Positions 521 to 36,008 of a stretch of DNA of 64,000 nucleotides are shown one piece after another. A program made the position numbers and the translations under genes. Position 1 is the first letter of the stretch. The number at the start of each line of letters is the position of its first letter. This DNA is from Gossypium raimondii (Eukaryota > Streptophyta > Magnoliopsida > Malvales > Malvaceae), in the NCBI RefSeq assembly GCF_025698545.1, contig NC_068570.1, positions 56,749,924-56,813,923 of the forward strand, read 5' to 3'. A model generated the notes under the pieces. It worked only from the letters and a program-made list of their open reading frames with translations, was not told where the DNA came from and made no database searches.

Positions 521-1112
521 GCATCCACCTCGGTATTTCTATATATTTACAAGAGGATGATAACGAGAGAGGTAAGGGGTAAACGTATTTATAGTTGAAG
601 CCTAATGAATGTTTGTAGAAAGGAAAAGAATCAATAATAAACAATTACATATTGATTGTTTTATGCAAATAGTTTATAATTTTTCCACAAAGGAAAATTA
701 CTTGGTAGTTGACGTTTCTTTTCCTTTTATTTATGAAGAATAAGGTGAGTTGACATTCAATGAAAATGATTTGTATCTAGAAAATTTCAATTTAAATTGT
801 TTAAAATTGAGTTTGGGCACTTGAAATCTCAAATTTATCCTTATAGTGTTTTAAAATAAAAGGTAAATTAGACAGTTGGTCACCCAACTTGTAATATTTT
901 ACAATGAATTACTTTGGTTTTTATAGGAAAAATTTGTGTTTTTACGAAGAAATATCTTTTTTTATTTACTTTATTTTTCATTTTTATTAAATTAAGGCTT
1001 AAGTACTAAAAACCCATGAAAATAATTCAAAAATCAATTGAGCCTCTCGTTGAAATGTGCAATCAATTGATCCCCTATAATATGGATTTCCAAGGAAGCC
1101 CTGACCGACCAT

Positions 1113-3065
1113 TAAGTCGACATTAATTTGGCTCTCAATTATAGATAAGCATTTATTAGGTAAACAAATTAGATCGATCGAAACTGGTCATGATCGATCT
1201 ATTAATTAATACACATTTATTTAATTTTAACACATATAAGATGCTTTCCTATGCTTGTAGCTTTATAATGTCAACTTTGTTGGATTATGAGCTTAATTTT
1301 TATTTCGTCATCATCGCATGCAAATGAAAGGAAAATTATACTCATAATTCAATAAAGTCAACATTAATGCTATACTATATGTCGATAATGGCAGTAGGAA
1401 GGATCGCAAAGCAATAAGAAAGAAAAATAAGAACACATAGATTTTACGTGAAAAACATTTTTTGGGAAAAACCAAAAGAAAAGAAGGAGAAATTCATTAA
1501 TGTTGAAAAACAACAATACAAAAGGTTTTCGACTACACACGTTTTTAAGGGTCAAACGATCCTGTTATAATCAATGTCTAATAGAATAAGTATAGTCATA
1601 TACAGATTCAACTTGTGCGGCATTTCATCCCCACAAATCCCCTATTTTGCCTCTCTATTTTATTTCTTTAACAAGTGAGTTGCACCTCGAACTTTTCAAG
1701 TCGGATCAAACGGGATTCAAGTCACAAAACTCTAACAATTAGATTGATTGAAATTGACTATGATCAATCTATTAATTAGTACCCATTTATCTAGTTTTAA
1801 CACATATAAGATGCTTTCCAATGCTCATTGCTTTATAATGTCAACTTTTCTGGATTATGAGCCTAATTTTTATTTCTTTGCATGCAAATGAAAGGAACAT
1901 TAGACTCATAATTTAGCAAAGTCGACATTAATTTGGCTCTCAATTAAGGATCAATATTTATTAGATAAACAAACTAGATCGATTGAAACCGACCATGATC
2001 AATCTATTAATTAGTACCCGTTTATCTAGTTTTAACACATATAAGATGCTTTCCAATGCTTGTGGCTTTATAATGACAACTTTGCTGGATTATGAGCCTA
2101 ATTTTCATTTCTTCATCATCAGATGCAAATAAAAGGAAAGTTAGACTCGTAATTTAGCAAAGTCGATATTAATTTGACTCTAAATTAAGGATCGACATTT
2201 ATTAGATAAACAAACTAGATCGATTGAAACTGACCATGATCAATCTATTAATTAGTACCCATTTATCTAGTTTTAACAAATATAAGATGCTTTCTAATGC
2301 TCGTAGCCTTATAATGTCAATTTTGTTGGATTGTGAACGTAGTTTTCATTTCTTCATCATTGCATGCAAATGAAAGGAAAACTAAACTCATAATTCAACA
2401 AAGTCAACATTAATTTGGCTCTCAATTAAGGATCAGCTTTTATTAGATAAACAAACTAAATCGATTGAAACCGACCACGATCAATCTATTAATTAGCACC
2501 CATTTATCTAGTTTTAACAAATATAAGATGCTTTCCAATACTCGTAGCTTTATAATGTCAACTTTGCTGGATTATGAGCCTAATTTTCATTTCATCATCA
2601 TCGCATGCAAATGAAAGGAAAATTAGACTCATAATTCAGCAAAGTCGACATTAATTTGACTCTCAATTAAGGATCAGCATTTATTAGATAAACAAACTCG
2701 GTCGATTGAAATCGACCATGATCAATCCATTAATTAGTACCCATTTATCTAGTTTTAACAAATATAAGATGCTTTCTAATGCTTGTAGCCTTATAATGTC
2801 AATTTTGTTGGATTGTGAACGTAGTTTTCATTTCTTCATCATTGCATGCAAATGAAAGGAAAACTAAACTCATAATTCAGCAAAGTCAACATTAATTTGG
2901 CTTTCAATTAAGCATCAGCTTTTATTAGATAAACAAACTAAATCGATTAAGACTGACCATGATCCATCTATTAATTAGTACCCATTTATCTAGTTTTAAC
3001 TATTTTCTAATACTCGTAGCCTTATAATGTCAACTTTCCTAAATTATGAGTCTGGTTTATATTGT
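1113..3065. repeat. Tandem array of ~240-bp units, each with a hairpin
   Basis: About seven units repeat at ~237-241 bp (unit starts near 1264, 1836, 2073, 2312, 2552, 2793 and 3025). The first interval is longer because an LTR is inserted. Each unit has a ~40-nt left arm (tgtcaactttgctggattat and on), a 15-25-nt spacer around the word catgcaaatg, and a right arm that is its near-perfect complement. An ~140-bp linker follows with tagtacccatttatctagtt. The arms could fold into a ~100-nt stem-loop if transcribed. The last unit is truncated. No protein frame is conserved. It could be an amplified foldback MITE or a small-RNA-producing locus. Confidence 0.85.
1378..1737 (-). mobile_element. Solo LTR remnant, Ty1/Copia-like (fossil)
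   Basis: Read on the minus strand it begins TGTTAGAG and carries the usual Copia LTR block around the word cacgtaaaatctatgtgttc near its 3' end. It sits inside the hairpin array and replaces about 50 bp of one unit. No internal region is attached. The 3' border is approximate. Old and broken. Confidence 0.6.
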
Positions 3066-3239: not shown

Positions 3240-4600
3240 TCAATTTAATCGAAAAATCATGATCAGGTTTGAAAGATTGTTGATTTTTGCCTATTAATTA
3301 TTATTTCAGATATTTGTTAAGTCACTACGTTTAGATATTATATAATTTTCAGATATTTTTCTTTTCTTTTATATATTATATAATTTATAATACATTTTTT
3401 GTTTAGAAATTTGATAAACATATATAATAGCAAAAGAAATATATTCTTTTTCTACTCGGTAATAAAATTTAGTTAATAAAGAAATGGATGGAGCAAAATG
3501 AAATTAAATTAAGAATTTAGACAGAATAAAATAAAATATAAAACTCATATTTAAAATTGTACCATATTTAGAATCTGATATATGAAACCTGAAATTGTGA
3601 CTTAATCATCTTAGCTTTTAATCTTGGCCAATATCTTTGACAAATTCACAAATTTTGAACAAATAATATTTTAAACTCAATCATAAGTGTAATTTCATCA
3701 TTTTAACAGTCTATATCTTTATAATTTTTAAAGGACTAAATCAAATTTTATCATTTTTGGGCCAAAGTATAATTTTACCATTAATAATTTAAATTTTTAT
3801 AAATTATAAAGAGCTTGAATTAAAATTTACTATTTTAAGGGGCCATGAATCCCGATGATATGATATTAAATTTATAAGATTAAATCCTTAAATTAAAAAT
3901 CGATAATAAGTCTAACATTTATCATTAAAGCTAAAACATGGATTTTATTTTATTTTTAAATTAGATAAAAAACTCGAAACAAAATTATGAAAATGTTTTA
4001 AACTAATCTATTTATAAAAATAATTTTAAACTCTGAATTTATTTTAAAGTATGTACAATTTAATTAAATATATTCTTATTTTATATTCATTAGACTAAAT
4101 ATATTCTAATATTTTTAAAATTTAATAAAGTCTCCTGTGGAATTTTAAACAGATATTGTTTGACGAATTATTATATCACATTGCTTAAAGTTTACAACAA
4201 AAAGAAGCTGGCTTCCTTACACATTGTTGGCCACCCAACAACCATATAAATAAATAAATACACATTCATAAAAGAGTACTTCTCCTGTTGAAACTATTTC
4301 GTCACAAATTTCATTTTTTTATGGGATGAAATACATATTTAATGAAATTCGCTTATAATTTTCCATATATGATAGGAATAGAGAAGAAAGGTTGAGCGAA
4401 TGGATGGAGCCTTGGGTAGTTTTTAAATTTGAATAGATTTGAGACCTCATGTAGAGGTCTTGTACAAAAACTCATCCAAGTTGAATGGTATGAATCGATT
4501 TAAAGATTTTAATTTTTTAAAGAATTTTATTATTTATAACTAAATTTAAATAAAACTTATCTTTTATTATATAAATAATTACCTTATTTCAATCTTCAGG
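3240..4600. other. AT-rich intergenic region upstream of metacaspase copy 1
   Basis: No gene was recognised. 3690-3850 belongs to a dispersed AT-rich repeat seen again at about 49580-49760 and 50195-50400 (shared words such as tctatatctttataattttt). The rest is low-complexity AT sequence. Confidence 0.5.
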
Positions 4601-4712
4601 AAAGATAAAATTTGGAAGCAATCTTCCGACACTTGAAAGGCATCTAACATTACATTAAGAAAACAAAGGTTGCTTGAACTATTTTCCAAGTCAACTATCA
4701 AATTTCATTTAC

Positions 4713-4719
4713 TATATAA
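4713..4719 (+). promoter_or_regulatory. TATA box of metacaspase copy 1
   Basis: TATATAA lies 109 bp before the ATG at 4828, in a block shared with the second copy. In the second copy the matching position (7542-7548) reads TAAATAA. Placing transcription start ~30 bp downstream gives a 5' UTR of about 80 nt. Confidence 0.5.
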
Positions 4720-4827
4720 TCCCAACCTCAAGCTTTCGGTTCTCACAACTTTTCGATATTCGATAATTACAATAACATTCGTCACATCTACAATCGTCGG
4801 TACGTTTTCTTCAACATCTCAGCATCA

Positions 4828-5884
4828 ATGGCCAAAGTTAACAAGAGATTGGCTGTTCTAGTGGGTTGCAATTACCCAAACACCCAATACGAATTGCATG
4901 GATGTATAAACGATGTGGTAGCCATGAAAGACGTGCTGGTTAAACGATTCGGGTTCGATCCAACAAATATCGAGCTCCTGACCGATGCATCGGCGGTGAC
5001 TGGAGAAGGGTCGTCATCGGTGGTTTTGCCAACAGGGGAGAACATTAAGGCAGCATTGAGTAAGATGGTGAGCCAGGCTGAAGCCGGTGATGTGTTGTAC
5101 TTCCATTATAGTGGACATGGAACAAGAATTCCAAAATCTGCCCACATTTTCGGCCACGATGAAGCAATTGTGCCTTGTGATTTCAATCTCATTACAGGTA
5201 AACTTTTTGCCACTATACTTTTAATTTTATTTTATACGAATCTCGAAATAAAAAATTCTTGACTTCACCTAATATGCATATGTGATTGTTGTAGACGTGG
5301 ATTTTAGACAATTAGTTAACCAATTACCCAAAGGAGCAAGTTTCACGATCTTGTCGGATTCATGTCACAGTGGTGGTCTCATTGATAAAGAAAAAGAACA
5401 AATCGGACCTTCTACCTATAGGGCAGCTTCATCACTTTCTTACAAGGCTAAGAACATCCCTTTTGAATCCATACTTGAGCACCTAACAACACTAACAGGG
5501 ATCAACACATCAGACATTGGTACTCATTTGTTAGAATCCTTTGGTGCCAATGCCAGCCTCAAATTCCTCACACCTCAGCTCGAGTCCGAGTTATTCGACT
5601 TCTTGAAGGCTGATGAGGGGATTTTGTTAAGTGGGTGTCAAGCAGATGAGACATCGGCGGACATGAACCCGATGGAGAGCGGTGGAAAAGCGTACGGAGC
5701 CTTTAGCAATGCCGTCCAGATGGTATTGAAAGAGAACTCCGGAAGATTAAGCAATAAAGAGGTTGTGATGATGGCTAGAAAAGTTTTAGAGGCTCAAGGA
5801 TTTGATCAACACCCTTGCCTTTATTGCAGTGATGAGAACGCCGATGCTACTTTCTTATGCCAGCCTGAGGCCAAGCCTTACTGA
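4828..5884 (+). CDS. Type II metacaspase, MC9-like, copy 1 (intact)
   Basis: Two exons, 4828-5197 and 5295-5884, joined at a phase-1 GT-AG intron of 97 bp, give 319 aa; Arabidopsis MC9 is about 325 aa. The product is a caspase-fold (clan CD) cysteine peptidase cutting after Arg or Lys; MC9 in Arabidopsis acts in xylem cell clearance. Visible in the sequence: an N-terminal p20 region with YFHYSGHGTR, giving catalytic His97, and SDSCHSGG, giving catalytic Cys147. The p10 region follows with SGCQADETSADMNP and ends in CLYCSDENADATFLC. The linker between p20 and p10 is short, as in MC9 rather than MC4-MC8. Zymogen processing in the linker is known for the family. The start is the first ATG of the conserved MAKVNKRLAVLVGCNYP block. 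The neighbour at 7657 is a tandem duplicate. Confidence 0.93.
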
Positions 5885-7656
5885 TATCGGTTTCGACAAT
5901 TTAAATATTGACTGCAACGTGATATTACCATCGTTATTTTACAAATTCGATTCTTCTAGTTACTAATGTTTAACAAAATTCACTATATCCGAAAATATGT
6001 TGGCAACAGCAATTTAAATTCCGATTTGAATATATGTATTTGCTTTGTGATTCATTTGCAATAACAAGATGTAATGTCAACCTCTTGTATGAGAAATTCT
6101 TAATCTATATTATATATGAATTTGTGAAACATTTCTTGTTAAACTAATTGCTAAGGACCATTATTTATGGGTTCATTTCTTGACTATGATGTAAGTAACA
6201 GAATGAATTTTATGAACAATTTTTAGCAGATCCGTGTCCGCCTAAATATCAAGGACCTGCTTATGAGGAGGAAAAAAGATTTACCTTGCTTGGAACTGTG
6301 TCAGTTTAAAGTTCAATTCTTGTTTCTGTGTCGACAGATTATATCGTAGTGGTGGTTTAGCTCTTCTCTGGAATTACAAGTATAATATTTCAATGACCAG
6401 CTTTTGTGGAAATCATAAGCGGCGCCTTTCTAGGTTTTATGGGTACCCCGAGGCCGCTCATAAGCAAGCTAGTTGGGAGTTACTTTGTTCTCTCGCTAGG
6501 GCTTCTAGGTTGTAGTGGGTTTGCATCGATGACTTCAACTATCTTCTTTCTTTGAATGATAAATGAGGTGGTGGTCACTACTCAACTGCTTGGTTAGACA
6601 CTAGTGATAGAACCAAGGTTGTTCATCACTGATTCGATTTTTGTTCAACATTGTTTGTCAGTTTAAACAGTGTTCACACAAGAATTTTAGTACAACCTAT
6701 GTGAGATGTTGGTATTTTTATAAGCAAATGAGTTTCAAAATGCGTTTTATTTCGTTCCAAATAATAGTGGGTCAAATTTAGATAATTGAAAGAACCATGA
6801 AATTGACATATCTTACTATTAAGGCTTATTTTTATCCTTACCTTTTTTTATCTTTTTGAGTTATTTATTTGGTAATTTATTTACTGTTTTCACTTGGCTA
6901 ATAAGGATTTATTTCAAGTTTTTACCTTATTAAGACTACCTAGATGTCAATTTTAGCTTATAAATAAATTATTGTGCCGCACATTTGGGTGTGCTTTTAG
7001 AGTGCTTTTGACTTGTTATTTGTGTATCTTTTACTTTTTTTTGCACTCTTGTGTTAGGCTTTCTTGGAGAATTTATAGTTGATGTATTGTTATTTGTGTA
7101 ACAATTGGGATTGGTGTTGGGGCTACAATTACTTCTTTAATGGTAGATTAGGCTTAAGCCAATAGGCGATATAGAAAATTATTGAATAAAAATCATTCAC
7201 CGAACGAGACTTTACAGAATAGGATTGGTGAATCTGAATTGCGTTAACAAATCTCTTGTGTTTATTTCTCTCTTTTCTTATTTTGCTTACTGTCTGTGTT
7301 TTCTTCGAACTCATATCATTCTTCAAAATAATTTAATTTTTGCAAAAAAATATTGTTTATAACTATACTATATAAATAATAAAACAGATTGGATTCTCTT
7401 ATTGAGTTGGAGGGGTTATCATAGCCGGATAAGTTTAATCATCAGCAAAGATTGAATGTTTGAAGCAATCATATCCCACGCTTGAAAGGCATCTAAAGGT
7501 TGCTTTAACTATTTTCAAGTCAACTATCAAATTTCATTTACTAAATAATCCCAACCTCAAGTTTTCAGTTCTCACAACTTTTCGGTATTCGATAATCACA
7601 ATAGCATTCATTACATCTACAATCGTCCATACTTTTTCTTCAACATCTCAGCATCA
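5885..7656. other. Spacer between metacaspase copies
   Basis: 5885-6060 is the 3' flank of copy 1, and 7440-7656 is a duplicate of the copy 1 upstream region (5' homology starts near 4605 and 7440). 6330-6620 is the LINE fragment. The remainder (about 6660-7430) is AT-rich with no recognisable gene. The duplication distance from ATG to ATG is 2829 bp. Confidence 0.6.
6330..6620 (+). mobile_element. LINE (L1-type) endonuclease remnant
   Basis: Plus-strand translation from about 6340 reads GGLALLWNYKYNIS, then RRLSRFYGYPEA, SWELLCSLARA and CIDDFNYLLS. This is the order of blocks in the apurinic-type endonuclease of plant LINEs (GGLALLW, FYGxP, SWxLLxxL, GDFN). The key GDFN block reads IDDFN here. 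In-frame stops interrupt it and no reverse transcriptase follows. It is a short dead fragment in the spacer between the two metacaspase copies. Confidence 0.75.
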
Positions 7657-8689
7657 ATGGCCAAAGTTAACAAGAGATTGGCTGTTCTAGTGGGTTGCAA
7701 TTACCCAAACACCCAATACGAATTGCATGGATGTATAAACGACGTGGTAGCCATGAAAGACGTGCTGGTTAAACGATTCGGGTTTGATCCAACAAATATC
7801 GAGCTCTTGACCGATGCATCGGCGGCGACTGGAGAAGGGCCGTCATTGATGGCTTTGCCGACAGGGGAGAACATTAAGGCAGCATTGAGTAAGATGGTGA
7901 GCCAGGCTGAAGCCGGTGATGTGTTGTATTTCCATTATAGTGGACCTGGAACAAGAATTCCAAAGCCTGCCCATCTTTTTGGACACGATGAGGCAATCGT
8001 GCCTTGTGATTTCAATCTCATTACGGGTAAATTTTTTATATTAAACTTTTAATTTTAGTTGAAATACAAAATTCTTGACTTCGCATCTTTTAATTGTAGA
8101 CGTGGATTTTAGACAATTAATTAATCAATTAACCAAAGGAGCAAGCTTCACGATCTTGTCGGATTCATGTCACAGTGGTGGTCTCATAGATAAAGAAAAA
8201 GAACAAATCGGACCTTCTACCTATAGGGCAGCTTCACCACTTTCTTACAAGGCTAAGAACGTCCCTTTTGAATCCATACTTGAGCACCTAACAACACTAA
8301 CAGGGATCAACACATCAGACGTTGGTACTCATTTGTTAGAATCCTTTGGTGCCAATTCCAGCCTCAAATTCCTCACACCTCAGCTCGAGCCCGAGTTATT
8401 CGACTTCTTGAAGGCTGATGAGGGGATTTTGTTAAGTGGGTGTCAAGCAGATGAGACATCGGCGGACATGAACCCGATGGAGAGCGGCAGAAAAGCGTAC
8501 GGAGCCTTTAGCAATGCCGTCCAGATGGTATTGAAAGAGAACTCCGGCGGATTAAGCAGTAAAGAGGTGATGATGATGGCTAGAAAGGTTTTAGAGGCTC
8601 AAGGATTTGATCAACACCCTTGTCTTTATTGCAGTGACAAGAACGCCGATGCTACTTTCTTGTGCCAGCTTGAGGCCGAGCCTTATTGA
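7657..8689 (+). CDS. Type II metacaspase, MC9-like, copy 2 (catalytic His lost)
   Basis: Exons 7657-8026 and 8100-8689, with the same phase-1 intron position as copy 1 (intron 73 bp), again give 319 aa with no stop or frameshift. The protein is nearly identical to copy 1 by eye. The conserved YFHYSGHGTR block reads YFHYSGPGTR, so catalytic His97 is Pro97 (CAT to CCT). Cys147 in SDSCHSGG and the p10 region are kept. With a Cys/His dyad mechanism, peptidase activity is not expected. It may be a pseudoenzyme, a dominant-negative partner, or a gene at the start of decay. Its TATA-like position is also altered. The reading frame looks real; catalytic function does not. Confidence 0.88.
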
Positions 8690-9098
8690 TATTGGTATCG
8701 ACAAATTAAATATCAATTGCAACGTGATATTACGATCGTTATTTTACAAATTCGATTTTCTAATTACTAATGTTTAACAAAATTCACTATATCCGAAAAT
8801 ATGTTCGCTGCTGCAATTTAGATTCCGATATGAATATATGTATTTGCTTTGTGATTCATTTCGGGTGAAATTGTCTATATTTTATAAGAATATGTGAAAC
8901 ATTTCGAGAATATTATTATTAATTAAACATTGGGTATAATGATAAGATATGTTCTATTTGAGAATTTAGATTTAAATATTAAACATAATATTATTGAAAA
9001 AGATAAAAAGTACAATCAGATAATAAGCCTGTAATAGCAAAAACCTTCACTAACTTTATTCAAAACATAATAATAATAACCCTAAACCCTAATAAAAA

Positions 9099-11715: not shown

Positions 11716-14290
11716 GTTAATATTTGATACACTAGCAGTGTAATCTTTTTCCACTAGCAGTGCAATTTTTTTTCCACTAGCAATATTAAAAATTGTCATC
11801 TATCTCTATTTTAATAAAATAGTTCAATTCATATTTTATTATACACAAATTTCAACTGGATTCTCTTTTAAATTATTCTGGTTTAAGTCTCATTATATAT
11901 GGGCTCTATCTATATTTATTATAGTCTAGATCTGAATTTATTTTGTTTATAAATTTATTGTATTTTGTAATATACTCGTATTTGTAAACTACTTTTTTTA
12001 AAAAAACTTCTCAAATTGAATATTTTCTCTCACTTGTATCTTAATTGTTGTCATAATTAAAGATGTTCATGAGTCGAGATAGACTTAAACATGATACTAA
12101 CGTATTTTATTCTTGTTCATGTCCAACCCGACTTAAAATATGTGTCCAAAATTTTACCAAAATCTGCCCATATCTATAAATGGTTAACCTAAACTCATTT
12201 TAAGTCCATTCATATTATTTTTCAAAAAATATTAATTTTAATTTAATCTATTTTTCATTCATTAAAATTTTATGCATAACCAACTTAATAGTTTTTAATG
12301 TTCACATTATAAACTATAAAGTAATACATTTAATTTTAGTGTAATTTAAGATAAGAATGAAGCTAAATAAAAATAAATTATAGTATGATTAAGCACTAGT
12401 CGGCATTAGGTTGTTTTATAATTTAAGATTTTATATTAGTTTATATATTCAGGTCGAATTCAAGTTTAAGATTTTTATTTTTAATGATGTCATTCGATTC
12501 ATTGTTAGAGAGGCTCATGGGACAGATTGGGTCAAACTGGGTCGAATTCGGGTTGGGTCTAAATAAAATATTAATATACTTTCTATTTATTTAAGCTCAA
12601 CCCAACTCAAAATATGAGCTTAAAATTTTGTCTAAACTTGTTCATTTTTACAAAAGACTAATACAAGCTCATTTTAGACCCTCCCATATTATTTTTTAAG
12701 AAAATTAAAAAAATTATATTATATTATTTTAATATTTAATAATTTTCTACATTTTTATTTATTGAAATTTTTATATAGTCATCTTAACATTATTTTAATG
12801 TTTACATTAGAGTAGTTTTATATATTTAGTATAGATTTTTTTCATGTGTTCTAAATTACATAATATATAAAATAATATAATATAAAGTATTATAAACTTA
12901 AAAATAGGTCGGGGCCGGTTATCTAAATTATTCCCAAGAATGTCCTTTTATATATAAAGGGATTTCGTAGTTCCAATTCATATTTTATTATACACAAATG
13001 TCATATGGATTCTCTTTTAAATTATTCTGGTTTAAATCTCATTATGTATGGGCTCTGTCTATATTTATTCTAGTCTAGATCCGAATTTATTTTGCTTATG
13101 AATTTATTGTATTTTGTAATATACTTGTATTTGTAAACTCCTTTTAAAAAAAACTTCTCAAATTGATTTTTTCTCTCACTTGTATCTTAATTGTTATCAT
13201 AATTAGAGATGTTCATGAGTCGGGTTAGGCTTAAACATGATACTAACGTACTTTATTCTTGTTCATGTCCAACCCGACTTGAAATATGGGTCCAAAATTT
13301 TACTAAAATCTGCTAATATCTATAAATGGTTAACCTAAACTCATTTTAAGTCCATCCATATTATTTTTCAAAAAAAATTAATTTTAATTTAATCTATTTT
13401 CCATTCATTAAAATTGTATGCATAGCGTACTTAATAGTTTTTAATGTTTACATTATAAACTATAAAGTAATACATTTAATTTTAGTGTCATTTAAGATAA
13501 GATTGAAGCTAATTAAAAATAAATTATAGTATGATTAAGCACTAGTCGGCATTAGGTTGTTTTATAATTTAAGATTTTATATTAGTTTATATATTCACGT
13601 TAATTAAAGTTTAAGATTTTATTTTTAATGATCTCCTTCGATTCATTATTGGAGGGGCTCATGGGACGGATTGGGTCGAATTGGGTCAAATTCGGGTCGG
13701 GTCTAAGTATAATATTAATATACTTTATATTTATGTAAGCTCAGCCCAACTCGAAATATGGGCTTAAAATTTTGTCCAAACTCGTTTATATTTACAAAAG
13801 ACTAATACAAACTTATTTTAGACCTGCCCATATTATTTTTAAAAATAATTGAAAAAATATATTATATTACATTAATATTTAATAATTTCCTACATTTTTT
13901 ATTTATTGAAATTTTTTATATAGTCATCTTAACATTATTTTAATGTTTACATTAGAGTAGTTTTATATATTTAGTATAGATTTATTATTTTTTTAAATGT
14001 GTTCTAAACTACATAATATATAAAAATAACATAATATAAAATATTATAAACTTAAAAATAAATCAGGGCGGGTTGGGCTCGAGCCTTGAAGGTTTAAGCC
14101 TGAGCTTGACCCATATTTTAAACGGGCCTAATTTTTTTGCCCAAGCTCATTTTTCGAACCTAATAGTTTTACCCAAACCTTCCTAAATTTCGGGTGAGCC
14201 TTCGAGCCTAAACGAGTAACCCGACCCGTGAACAAGTCTATTCATTAGTAATGTATAGAATTATACACTATCAATGCATCAAATATTAGC
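11716..14290. mobile_element. Possible DNA element with inverted ends holding a 1.15-kb direct duplication
   Basis: The left end (11716-11743, gttaatatttgatacactag) is the approximate complement of the right end (14261-14290, actatcaatgcatcaaatat). Between them, 11826-12950 and 12977-14100 are direct copies about 1151 bp apart. Both contain the words attattctggtttaa, catgagtcg and gcactagtcggcattaggtt. No protein frame was found. 14050-14240 is rich in gggtcgggtt/cccgacc motifs common in dispersed plant repeats. The inverted ends are short and imperfect, so the element call is tentative; the direct duplication is clear. Confidence 0.55.
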
Positions 14291-33319: not shown

Positions 33320-34459
33320 TTAGCATCTAGAGAGATGTGGCTCAATGCAACTGAGATGGAAAATTCCTTGCCTCTTATGGTCTACCTCCACCTTCAATTT
33401 CTCTTCCTCCTCTCCTCTCTTCACTATGAGAACCAATTCGATTCTCACCTAATCTTCCACCACCTATGTCTGAGATTCAAATGAAAACGAAATTACATAT
33501 AAACTCGGATTCAATTACAATAAAGCAATAAGAAAATAAAAGCTTCCCGTTTACAGCATACCTCGGCATTGGCATGAACGATTTCTTTAAGTTGATAAAG
33601 CACAAGGGAATTTGATCTCTGCTGAATGGTCTTCAGAGCATGAGTTGCAGCTTATTCAACTAAAGGATCGTGCGTCGGAATACATTGCAAACCAGGGCCA
33701 TGGCCATCTATTTTGGAGCAAATAATTAATTTGGGTTCAATATGAAATAATATATATATATACTCTTAGGTTTTCTTTCCACTCCCTCGTATTTTTTAAC
33801 TCTTTCATCCGATCAAACACACCCTCGAATTTTGGGTGTTATTTCAATACAACGATAGTTACCTTTAGTTTTCCATCTAGCAAACGAGTAATAATCAGAT
33901 CCCATGCGCTTTGCTCTTCGCTTCTTTGCGTAAGAGCTCCTGCCTGTACCGGGTAAAGGCTGCACAACTGCAAAATAGGAAAGGAGATATTCTTCATATC
34001 GTATCCCCCTGCATGAGTATTCTTAATAAGATACAAACTCTTTTTTTCTTTTTCTTTTTCTTTTCTTTTCTGAAATGCCGATAATTTCCTACAATAACTA
34101 TTCGAAGAAAATTTGAGTAATGAAGAACCTTTGTTGACCACAAGATCGGAAGTAGTAGAAGAAGGGGAAGCATGAGCATCACCGGCATGTTTAAATTCCT
34201 GCAACTGCTTGAAGTTCGACCAAGGTTTGACCCACACTTTGGCCTCATAAAGCTTCTTTCCGCCGGCATCAATGGCTTCCACCGTCAAATGGTGAAGCCT
34301 CCCGACTACCAGTGGCTCGGCTGCTTGATCCACCCTCACAAACACAACCGTACCGTCCTCTCTATTGTTGTGCTCATCGATAGCAAAGCAAGCGACGTTT
34401 TCGAGCTCTACGTTGATTGCCGAACCTCCGCCCAAAGTGACTGCGGTGGTGGTGGTCAT
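33320..34459 (-). pseudogene. Phytocystatin, tandem copy with broken C-terminal domain
   Basis: It has the same three-exon structure as the intact gene at 35148: exon 1 34129-34459 (from MTTTTAVTLGGG), exon 2 33562-33707, exon 3 33320-33463. The cystatin core is open: [19 protein letters not shown] and LQEFKHA. The inhibitory first loop QxVxG reads PLVVG, so the Gln is lost, and the [10 protein letters not shown] block reads VACFAIDEHN. The legumain-inhibitor domain (SNSL present) is cut by a TAA at 33652-33654, and a TAG at 33449-33451 interrupts exon 3. The ATG of the signal-peptide start is gone, though hydrophobic coding remains upstream. A truncated short cystatin could still be made, but weak papain inhibition is expected. 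Confidence 0.82.
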
Positions 34460-34639
34460 TGGTTCTAAGCTGAGGGTTAATTCCGCAGAGAGATTGATGA
34501 AGAAGAGAATTGAGATTGGTGTGGAGGATGAAAATGGAGAAGGCTCAAATGAATAATTTATTCTCACACTGTAGCTATTTTTTTCCTTTGGTTCTTGTCC
34601 CAAGTGTAACTCATCATGGTTGTAAGAAATTCTCATCGT

Positions 34640-35147: not shown

Positions 35148-36008
35148 TCAAGAGTGATGTGGCTCAATGCGGTTGAGATGGAAAGTTCCATGGCTCAAAT
35201 GCTGTACTTCCACCGTCAACTTCTCTTCCTTGTCTCCTCTCTTAACCTTCAGAACCATTTCAAGTTTGGTCAAATCTTCCACCACCTGTGTATTTCCACT
35301 TTCATGTCAAAACCACTTCACTTCAATAATATTATTAAACAGGATGACACACCATACCTCAGCATTGGCATGAAGGATTTCTTTGAGTTCATAAGGCACA
35401 AGGGAATTTGATCTCTGCTGAATGGCTTTGAGAGCATGATTTGCAGCACCTTCAACTACAGGGTCATGTATTGGCACACCTTGCAATCCATGGCCATGCC
35501 CATCTATTTTCACCCAATAATTTATCTAAGTTTAATATCAACAATCAAAGAGGATTTGAGTTATGAACAAACCTTTCTTGATACCAAGATCCGAAGTTGT
35601 ACAAGAAGGGGAATCATCGGCATGTTTAAACTCCTGCAATTCCTTCACGTTCATCCATGGCTTGACCCACACTTTAGCCTCATAAAGCTTCTTTTTTCCA
35701 CCATCAATGGCTTCCACAGTCAAATGGTGAAGCGTCCCCGCCACCACTTGCTCCGTTGCTTTCACCACCCTCACAAACTCAACCATACCCTTCTCTTTCT
35801 TGTTGTGCTCATCGACGGCGAAGCGAGCGACGTTTTCGAGCTCCGCGCTGTTTTGGGATCTGCCGGACGGGCGAAATCCGCCCAAATTGGCGGCGGTGGT
35901 GGCCATTGGTTCAGAGCTGAGAGTTGATTCCGCAAAGAAATTGTTGAAGAAGAGAATTGAGATTGGTATGTAGAATAAAAAAGAGATTGCGAAACTGGGA
36001 TTTCGCAT
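35148..36008 (-). CDS. Long phytocystatin (CYS6 type), intact
   Basis: Exons 35573-36008, 35358-35503 and 35148-35285 give 239 aa. An N-terminal signal peptide (hydrophobic residues ~7-26) is followed by a cystatin domain with the Gly motif [14 protein letters not shown] (60-69), the inhibitory loop QVVAG (87-91) and PW (117-118). A C-terminal cystatin-like domain has SNSL (177-180), which in long phytocystatins inhibits legumains (vacuolar processing enzymes), while the N domain inhibits papain-like C1A peptidases. Met35 (ATG at 35904-35906) is an in-frame alternative start without signal peptide. A TATA box lies only ~6 bp before the first ATG, which favours Met35. It matches Arabidopsis CYS6 (At3g12490), whose neighbour is also NF-YC11. 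Confidence 0.92.

Follow-up and report, generated by a model that had tools for sequence, protein, structure and literature searches.

A tandem AtMC9-like type II metacaspase with proline at the catalytic histidine position and an open reading frame

In the window (64,000 nucleotides of Gossypium raimondii DNA, C6:56749924-56813923), the AtMC9-like type II metacaspase of this genome is duplicated in tandem, and the second copy (copy 2) carries proline at the position of the catalytic histidine. Splicing and translation confirmed the preliminary description, which had reported that copy 2 reads CCT (Pro) at codon 97, where copy 1 reads CAT (His), and that it keeps both exons, the intron position, and all 319 codons. 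Its further statement that copy 1 retains the dyad also proved correct, His97 and Cys147 both being present there. In the explanation that we favour, copy 2 is a duplicate that has lost catalysis and has begun to decay while still intact; we rate this as somewhat probable. The evidence is mixed, and the dead, decaying duplicate is preferred over a pseudoenzyme kept by selection.

Both copies are free of frameshifts and, when spliced, encode 319 amino acids followed by a stop. They share an identical intron position in phase 1 with GT-AG borders, the introns being 97 and 73 nt long (Table 1); retention of the copy 2 intron would introduce stops. The duplicated unit is about 1.5 kb and includes roughly 230 bases upstream of the genes. 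In copy 2, the C14 domain (PF00656) was recognised at residues 6-302, spanning p20 and p10, with a score of 127.3 bits (cut-off 21.4), lower than the 138.5 bits of copy 1. The best match among solved structures was AtMC9 (PDB 9n3d, 8a53; E 8e-118), with which copy 2 is collinear over residues 3 to 313; the N-terminal prodomain is absent and the p20-p10 linker is present. Moreover, AtMC9 and the window pair grouped together against a distant cluster in an unrooted protein tree, with a support of 100. Apart from the missing catalytic residue, the domain of copy 2 is complete by sequence, and its fold is presumably intact. Two other elements lie close to the pair. A tandem array with a 241-base unit occupies 1061-3000 upstream of copy 1, its units being weaker (60-75%) from 1061 and 86-90% alike from 1866 on. 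Between both copies, at ~6390-6620, there is a broken reading frame that is LINE endonuclease-like by impression; a 34-residue part of this frame gave no Pfam match.

Table 1. Coordinates of the metacaspase pair in the window
Feature	Position	Strand	Basis or remark
Copy 1 duplicated unit, approximate ends	4594..6135	+	alignment and repeats D3, D4, D8
Copy 1 TATATAA, 115 bases before ATG	4713..4719	+	
Copy 1 exon 1	4828..5197	+	spliced translation
Copy 1 codon 97 CAT, catalytic His kept	5116..5118	+	
Copy 1 intron, 97 nt	5198..5294	+	
Copy 1 exon 2	5295..5884	+	catalytic Cys codon at 5363-5365
Copy 2 duplicated unit, approximate ends	7430..8912	+	read from alignment
Copy 2 TAAATAA at the place of TATATAA in copy 1	7542..7548	+	putative altered TATA box
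Copy 2 exon 1: N-terminal part of p20, codons 1-123 and base 1 of 124	7657..8026	+	spliced translation, tblastn
Copy 2 codon 97 CCT (Pro), aligned with the catalytic His95 of AtMC9	7945..7947	+	
Copy 2 intron, 73 nt, GT-AG, positioned as in copy 1	8027..8099	+	
Copy 2 exon 2: remaining p20, linker, p10, stop TGA	8100..8689	+	spliced translation
Copy 2 codon 147 TGT, catalytic Cys kept (SDSCHSGG)	8168..8170	+	

The role of the altered position was evaluated by alignment with AtMC9. Codon 97, at which the copies differ by a single base, aligns with AtMC9 His95, and Cys147, present in both copies, aligns with AtMC9 Cys147. Cys26 and Lys176, also found in both copies, occupy the places of AtMC9 Cys29 and Arg183. 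We take AtMC9 residues 95 and 147 to be the dyad and residue 183 to be the processing residue. Both copies therefore match AtMC9 at Cys147, at Cys29, and in having a basic residue at Arg183; they differ from it in carrying Lys at the last of these, and copy 2 differs further in having Pro in place of His95. The dyad histidine is essential in this peptidase clan. Because the dyad of copy 2 is incomplete, with Cys147 present and Pro at position 97, copy 2 was classed as a homologue and not as an active member of the type II metacaspases (C14), whereas copy 1 has both residues. The motif around position 97 is otherwise intact in copy 2.

According to passages of one study, His86 and Cys139 of AtMC4 are each 3.2 Å away from the carbonyl group of Lys225, at which the enzyme processes itself (PMC7206013), a geometry in which loss of the histidine should stop both self-processing and substrate cutting. 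Judged by its residues, copy 2 has very probably lost proteolysis. The opposite reading, that another residue or a water molecule stands in for His97 and leaves copy 2 an active protease, can appeal to the intact Cys147, Cys26, and Lys176, but it is very improbable given the AtMC4 geometry and given that the alignment of copy 2 contains no new histidine. Of the conserved cysteines, Cys29 is described in part of a further study as affecting AtMC9 activity (PMC5756287).

Among the matches listed, 19 p20 stretches include position 97; histidine occupies it in 18 of these, and copy 2 alone has proline. The 19 stretches comprise copies 1 and 2 of the window; copies A, B, E, G, H, J, K, and L of an MC9-like cluster; one decayed remnant on C3; one MC4-like gene; and 7 type-I-like genes, the last two labels being our own reading. 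They are all the residue-spanning places among the best candidates scored in the assembly (750.8 Mb, 281 contigs), so that the genome holds at least 19, and four cluster fragments that end short of the histidine position are excluded from the count. The carriers of histidine include two truncated cluster copies and the C3 remnant (L024, ~4,941,180-4,941,525), a decayed metacaspase in which stops are present and the catalytic histidine motif SGHG is still kept.

That codon 97 reflects an error of sequencing or assembly, or an allele that is rare and happens to be carried by the sequenced plant, is in our view unlikely. A single assembly was available and one base suffices for the change; against this, copy 2 stands alone at four further invariant columns and differs from copy 1 at 45 codons in all, so that H97P fits a general trend. 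In addition, no third near-identical place was found among the 20 matches listed, the next best being 84% over 117 bases, which limits any mixing of copies to the pair, itself well separated. These arguments bear on the context of codon 97 and not on its base itself.

The differing codons divide into 22 nonsynonymous and 23 synonymous ones. Comparison of copy 1 with copy 2 gave dS 0.120, dN 0.030, and omega 0.25 by NG86, and dS 0.085 and omega 0.41, below 1 at p=0.005, by GY94. Noncoding divergence was K=0.10 overall (5' 0.088, intron 0.168, 3' 0.087); since the synonymous values are comparable to it, synonymous sites seem to evolve almost neutrally. Plant substitution rates of 2.6-7e-9 per site per year would put the age of the pair at ~6 to 23 million years. 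The preliminary description had left a choice between a pseudoprotease and a pseudogene of very recent origin. Loss of the dyad stood up, whereas the duplication is not very young, because dS is 0.085-0.12 and noncoding divergence 0.10. Gene conversion between the copies was considered and rejected, the longest difference-free run in the coding sequence being not unusual (p=0.30).

The amino-acid changes are unevenly shared between the copies. With AtMC9 as outgroup, copy 2 had 12 unique changes against a single one in copy 1 (p=0.003), a count that omits 9 of the 22 differences, at which the AtMC9 residue is missing or matches neither copy; without the loop 57-66, the count was 10 to 0, all on copy 2. 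Six distant paralogs used as outgroups pointed in the same direction in 6 of 6 cases, with p 0.065-0.39 singly over all sites and two of the six reaching p=0.039 without the loop 57-66. The branch lengths in the protein tree were 0.061 for copy 2 and 0.013 for copy 1. Furthermore, 96 columns are invariant among 7 relatives, and these contain 7 of the 22 differences, where random mutation expects 6.6. Sole departures from invariant columns are those of copy 2 at 64, 97, 135, 277, and 281 and that of copy 1 at 62. The truncated cluster copies G and J were excluded from this set of relatives and from the codon models. The 22 replacements had a mean BLOSUM62 score of 0.05 vs. -0.31 to -0.43 for random ones, slightly milder but not significantly so (p=0.10-0.16). 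Because the changes fall 12 to 1 on copy 2 and conserved columns are not avoided, relaxed constraint on copy 2 was ranked as more probable than selected retention.

The main competing explanation is that copy 2 was retained as a pseudoenzyme, a non-cutting copy kept as a decoy, a substrate trap, or a partner through which copy 1 or the targets of copy 1 are modulated. We hold this to be possible but clearly less probable. Preservation of the active-site Cys147, of Cys26, and of the processing Lys176 argues for it, as do the pairwise omega and two codon models in which omega 1 for copy 2 was disfavoured; the lopsided changes relative to AtMC9 and the unspared invariant columns argue against it. 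The equal-time model gave omega 0.30 for copy 1 and 0.50 for copy 2 (difference p=0.39), with p=0.066 for omega 1 in copy 2. In the no-clock model, which also placed more synonymous change on copy 2, the omegas were equal (0.295, 0.289), and for copy 2 an omega of 1 was rejected at p=0.034. Both tests are weak, and the background omega of 0.57-0.58 was taken as saturation; the outgroup paralogs are too distant, so that these branch models decide little. The preliminary description had proposed that dN/dS below 1 would support a retained pseudoenzyme. The pairwise value does formally lie below 1, but it is no proof that copy 2 was retained, because the figure averages both copies, because the changes fall so unequally on copy 2, and because the differences do not avoid conserved columns.

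The condition of the reading frame bears on the same question. No disabling stop, frameshift, or splice-site loss was found in copy 2, whose spliced frame is open with GT-AG kept. Under neutrality of copy 2 from the duplication onwards, the probability of finding no stop or frameshift would be 0.001-0.01 when indels occur at the rate seen across all noncoding DNA that could be aligned (5 gaps against 37 substitutions), and 0.09 when a lower rate, chosen by hand to represent the flanks, is used. An open frame of 319 codons at this synonymous divergence thus speaks for the pseudoenzyme. A rough two-phase reckoning, which assumes an equal synonymous split, low omega before, and ~18 replacements on copy 2, agreed with a copy 2 branch that was 50-75% free of constraint; full neutrality was borderline (P=0.05 for at most 18 replacements), and one quarter free was too little (P=0.002 for at least 18). 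Taken together with the open frame, this reckoning suggested that copy 2 was probably functional during part of its history. However, an intact frame cannot tell what followed H97P, and the time since that change may be short. The open frame and the codon models are the reasons for which the pseudoenzyme keeps a share of our confidence.

Splice damage was also considered as the break and rejected: the donor -2 base is changed in copy 2, yet GT-AG is kept and U1 pairing of the donor is little changed (-8.1 vs. -8.8 kcal/mol). Upstream, TATATAA of copy 1 is replaced by TAAATAA at the corresponding place in copy 2, and no TATAWAW occurs in the 200 bases upstream of copy 2. Assuming that copy 1 shows the ancestral state, the altered TATA box may weaken the promoter and expression of copy 2.

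For the favoured decaying duplicate, we propose the following course. Copy 1 would carry on the protease function, and copy 2 would have lost the histidine of the Cys-His dyad through H97P. Cys147 without His97 would attack the peptide bond inefficiently, and copy 2 would then neither cut substrates nor process itself at the linker Lys176. During much of its history, copy 2 would have been under relaxed protein constraint, gathering most of the assignable amino-acid changes, some of them at invariant sites, together with the altered TATA box. It would not yet have met a stop or frameshift, and it presumably lacks a selected function.

Published precedents bear on the pseudoenzyme from both sides. 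As reported in passages of two studies, MCA1 and MCA4 of T. brucei are likewise metacaspases without a complete dyad, and MCA4, a pseudopeptidase, provides a precedent (PMC10896300, PMC6426788). These proteins are of type I and have His-Ser and Tyr-Ser in place of His-Cys, the Cys being lost (PMC6426788, PMC10896300), whereas copy 2 is of type II, keeps the Cys, and has His replaced by Pro. Bacterial pseudo-orthocaspases also have a p20 domain with a changed dyad, but p10 is absent and Tyr-Ser is commonest (PMC6426788). In the passages of that source, pseudo-forms make up 858 of 9,994 bacterial orthocaspases vs. 4 of 1,121 bacterial metacaspases, and pseudo-proteases of the family seem restricted to prokaryotic orthocaspases, with T. 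brucei MC4 named beside them (PMC6426788). Dead AtMC1 provides a second precedent: as excerpts of the study describe, the engineered C220A form co-purifies with immune components in plants, indicating that a plant metacaspase without activity can hold partners (PMC12069761). Unlike copy 2, it is an engineered Cys mutant. Moreover, its effect requires its prodomain, which type II metacaspases do not have, and dead AtMC2 is without such an effect (PMC12069761), both of which count against the parallel. We regard as more doubtful still the specific proposal that copy 2 is a retained twin, lacking the His and keeping the Cys, that associates with the substrates, inhibitors, or partners of its active neighbour without cutting and thereby restrains MC9-driven proteolysis. 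Among the literature matches listed, which reach little into subscription journals, there was no plant type II metacaspase without the dyad.

Pseudo-forms of caspase relatives have been described in bacteria and trypanosomes. If copy 2 is a true plant pseudo-metacaspase, the active twin alongside it leads directly to the question of whether dead metacaspases regulate living ones. If copy 2 is merely a decaying duplicate, it illustrates cleanly how a duplicate can be lost through its active site, and it cautions family surveys that count each C14-domain gene as a protease.

A family survey of four cottons, as far as its passages go, reported 89 metacaspase genes, of which 41 are AtMC9 homologs, and placed tandem pairs on chromosome 10 in G. 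raimondii and on chromosome 06 in both G. arboreum and the D subgenome of G. hirsutum (PMC6679041). Contig C6 carries the window, and the survey has pairs on chromosome 06; its gene names are unmatched to the window, and those passages have no word on which pairs are AtMC9 homologs or on loss of catalytic residues (PMC6679041).

The MC9-like cluster lies on the minus strand of C6 at 56,378,900-56,510,000 (L009-L023), ~245-376 kb from the window pair, and consists of six long copies, two truncated ones (G and J), and four fragments. G/H and J/K form a repeated segment, ~16.2-16.4 kb apart. Copies B and A stand head to tail on the minus strand (C6 ~56,378,900-56,381,310; L009/L010); B is stopless, and its frame continues through ten residues into the ATG of A. 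A single spliced B-A transcript could thus yield two fused metacaspases, each with a complete dyad. Within the window, AT-rich DNA at 11825-13858 forms a direct repeat with ~1.15 kb spacing, 88-92% alike. Two adjoining genes for cystatin/SQAPI-type proteinase inhibitors are located on the minus strand at 33839-34636 and 35538-36008, so that the window holds a tandem protease pair and a protease inhibitor pair.
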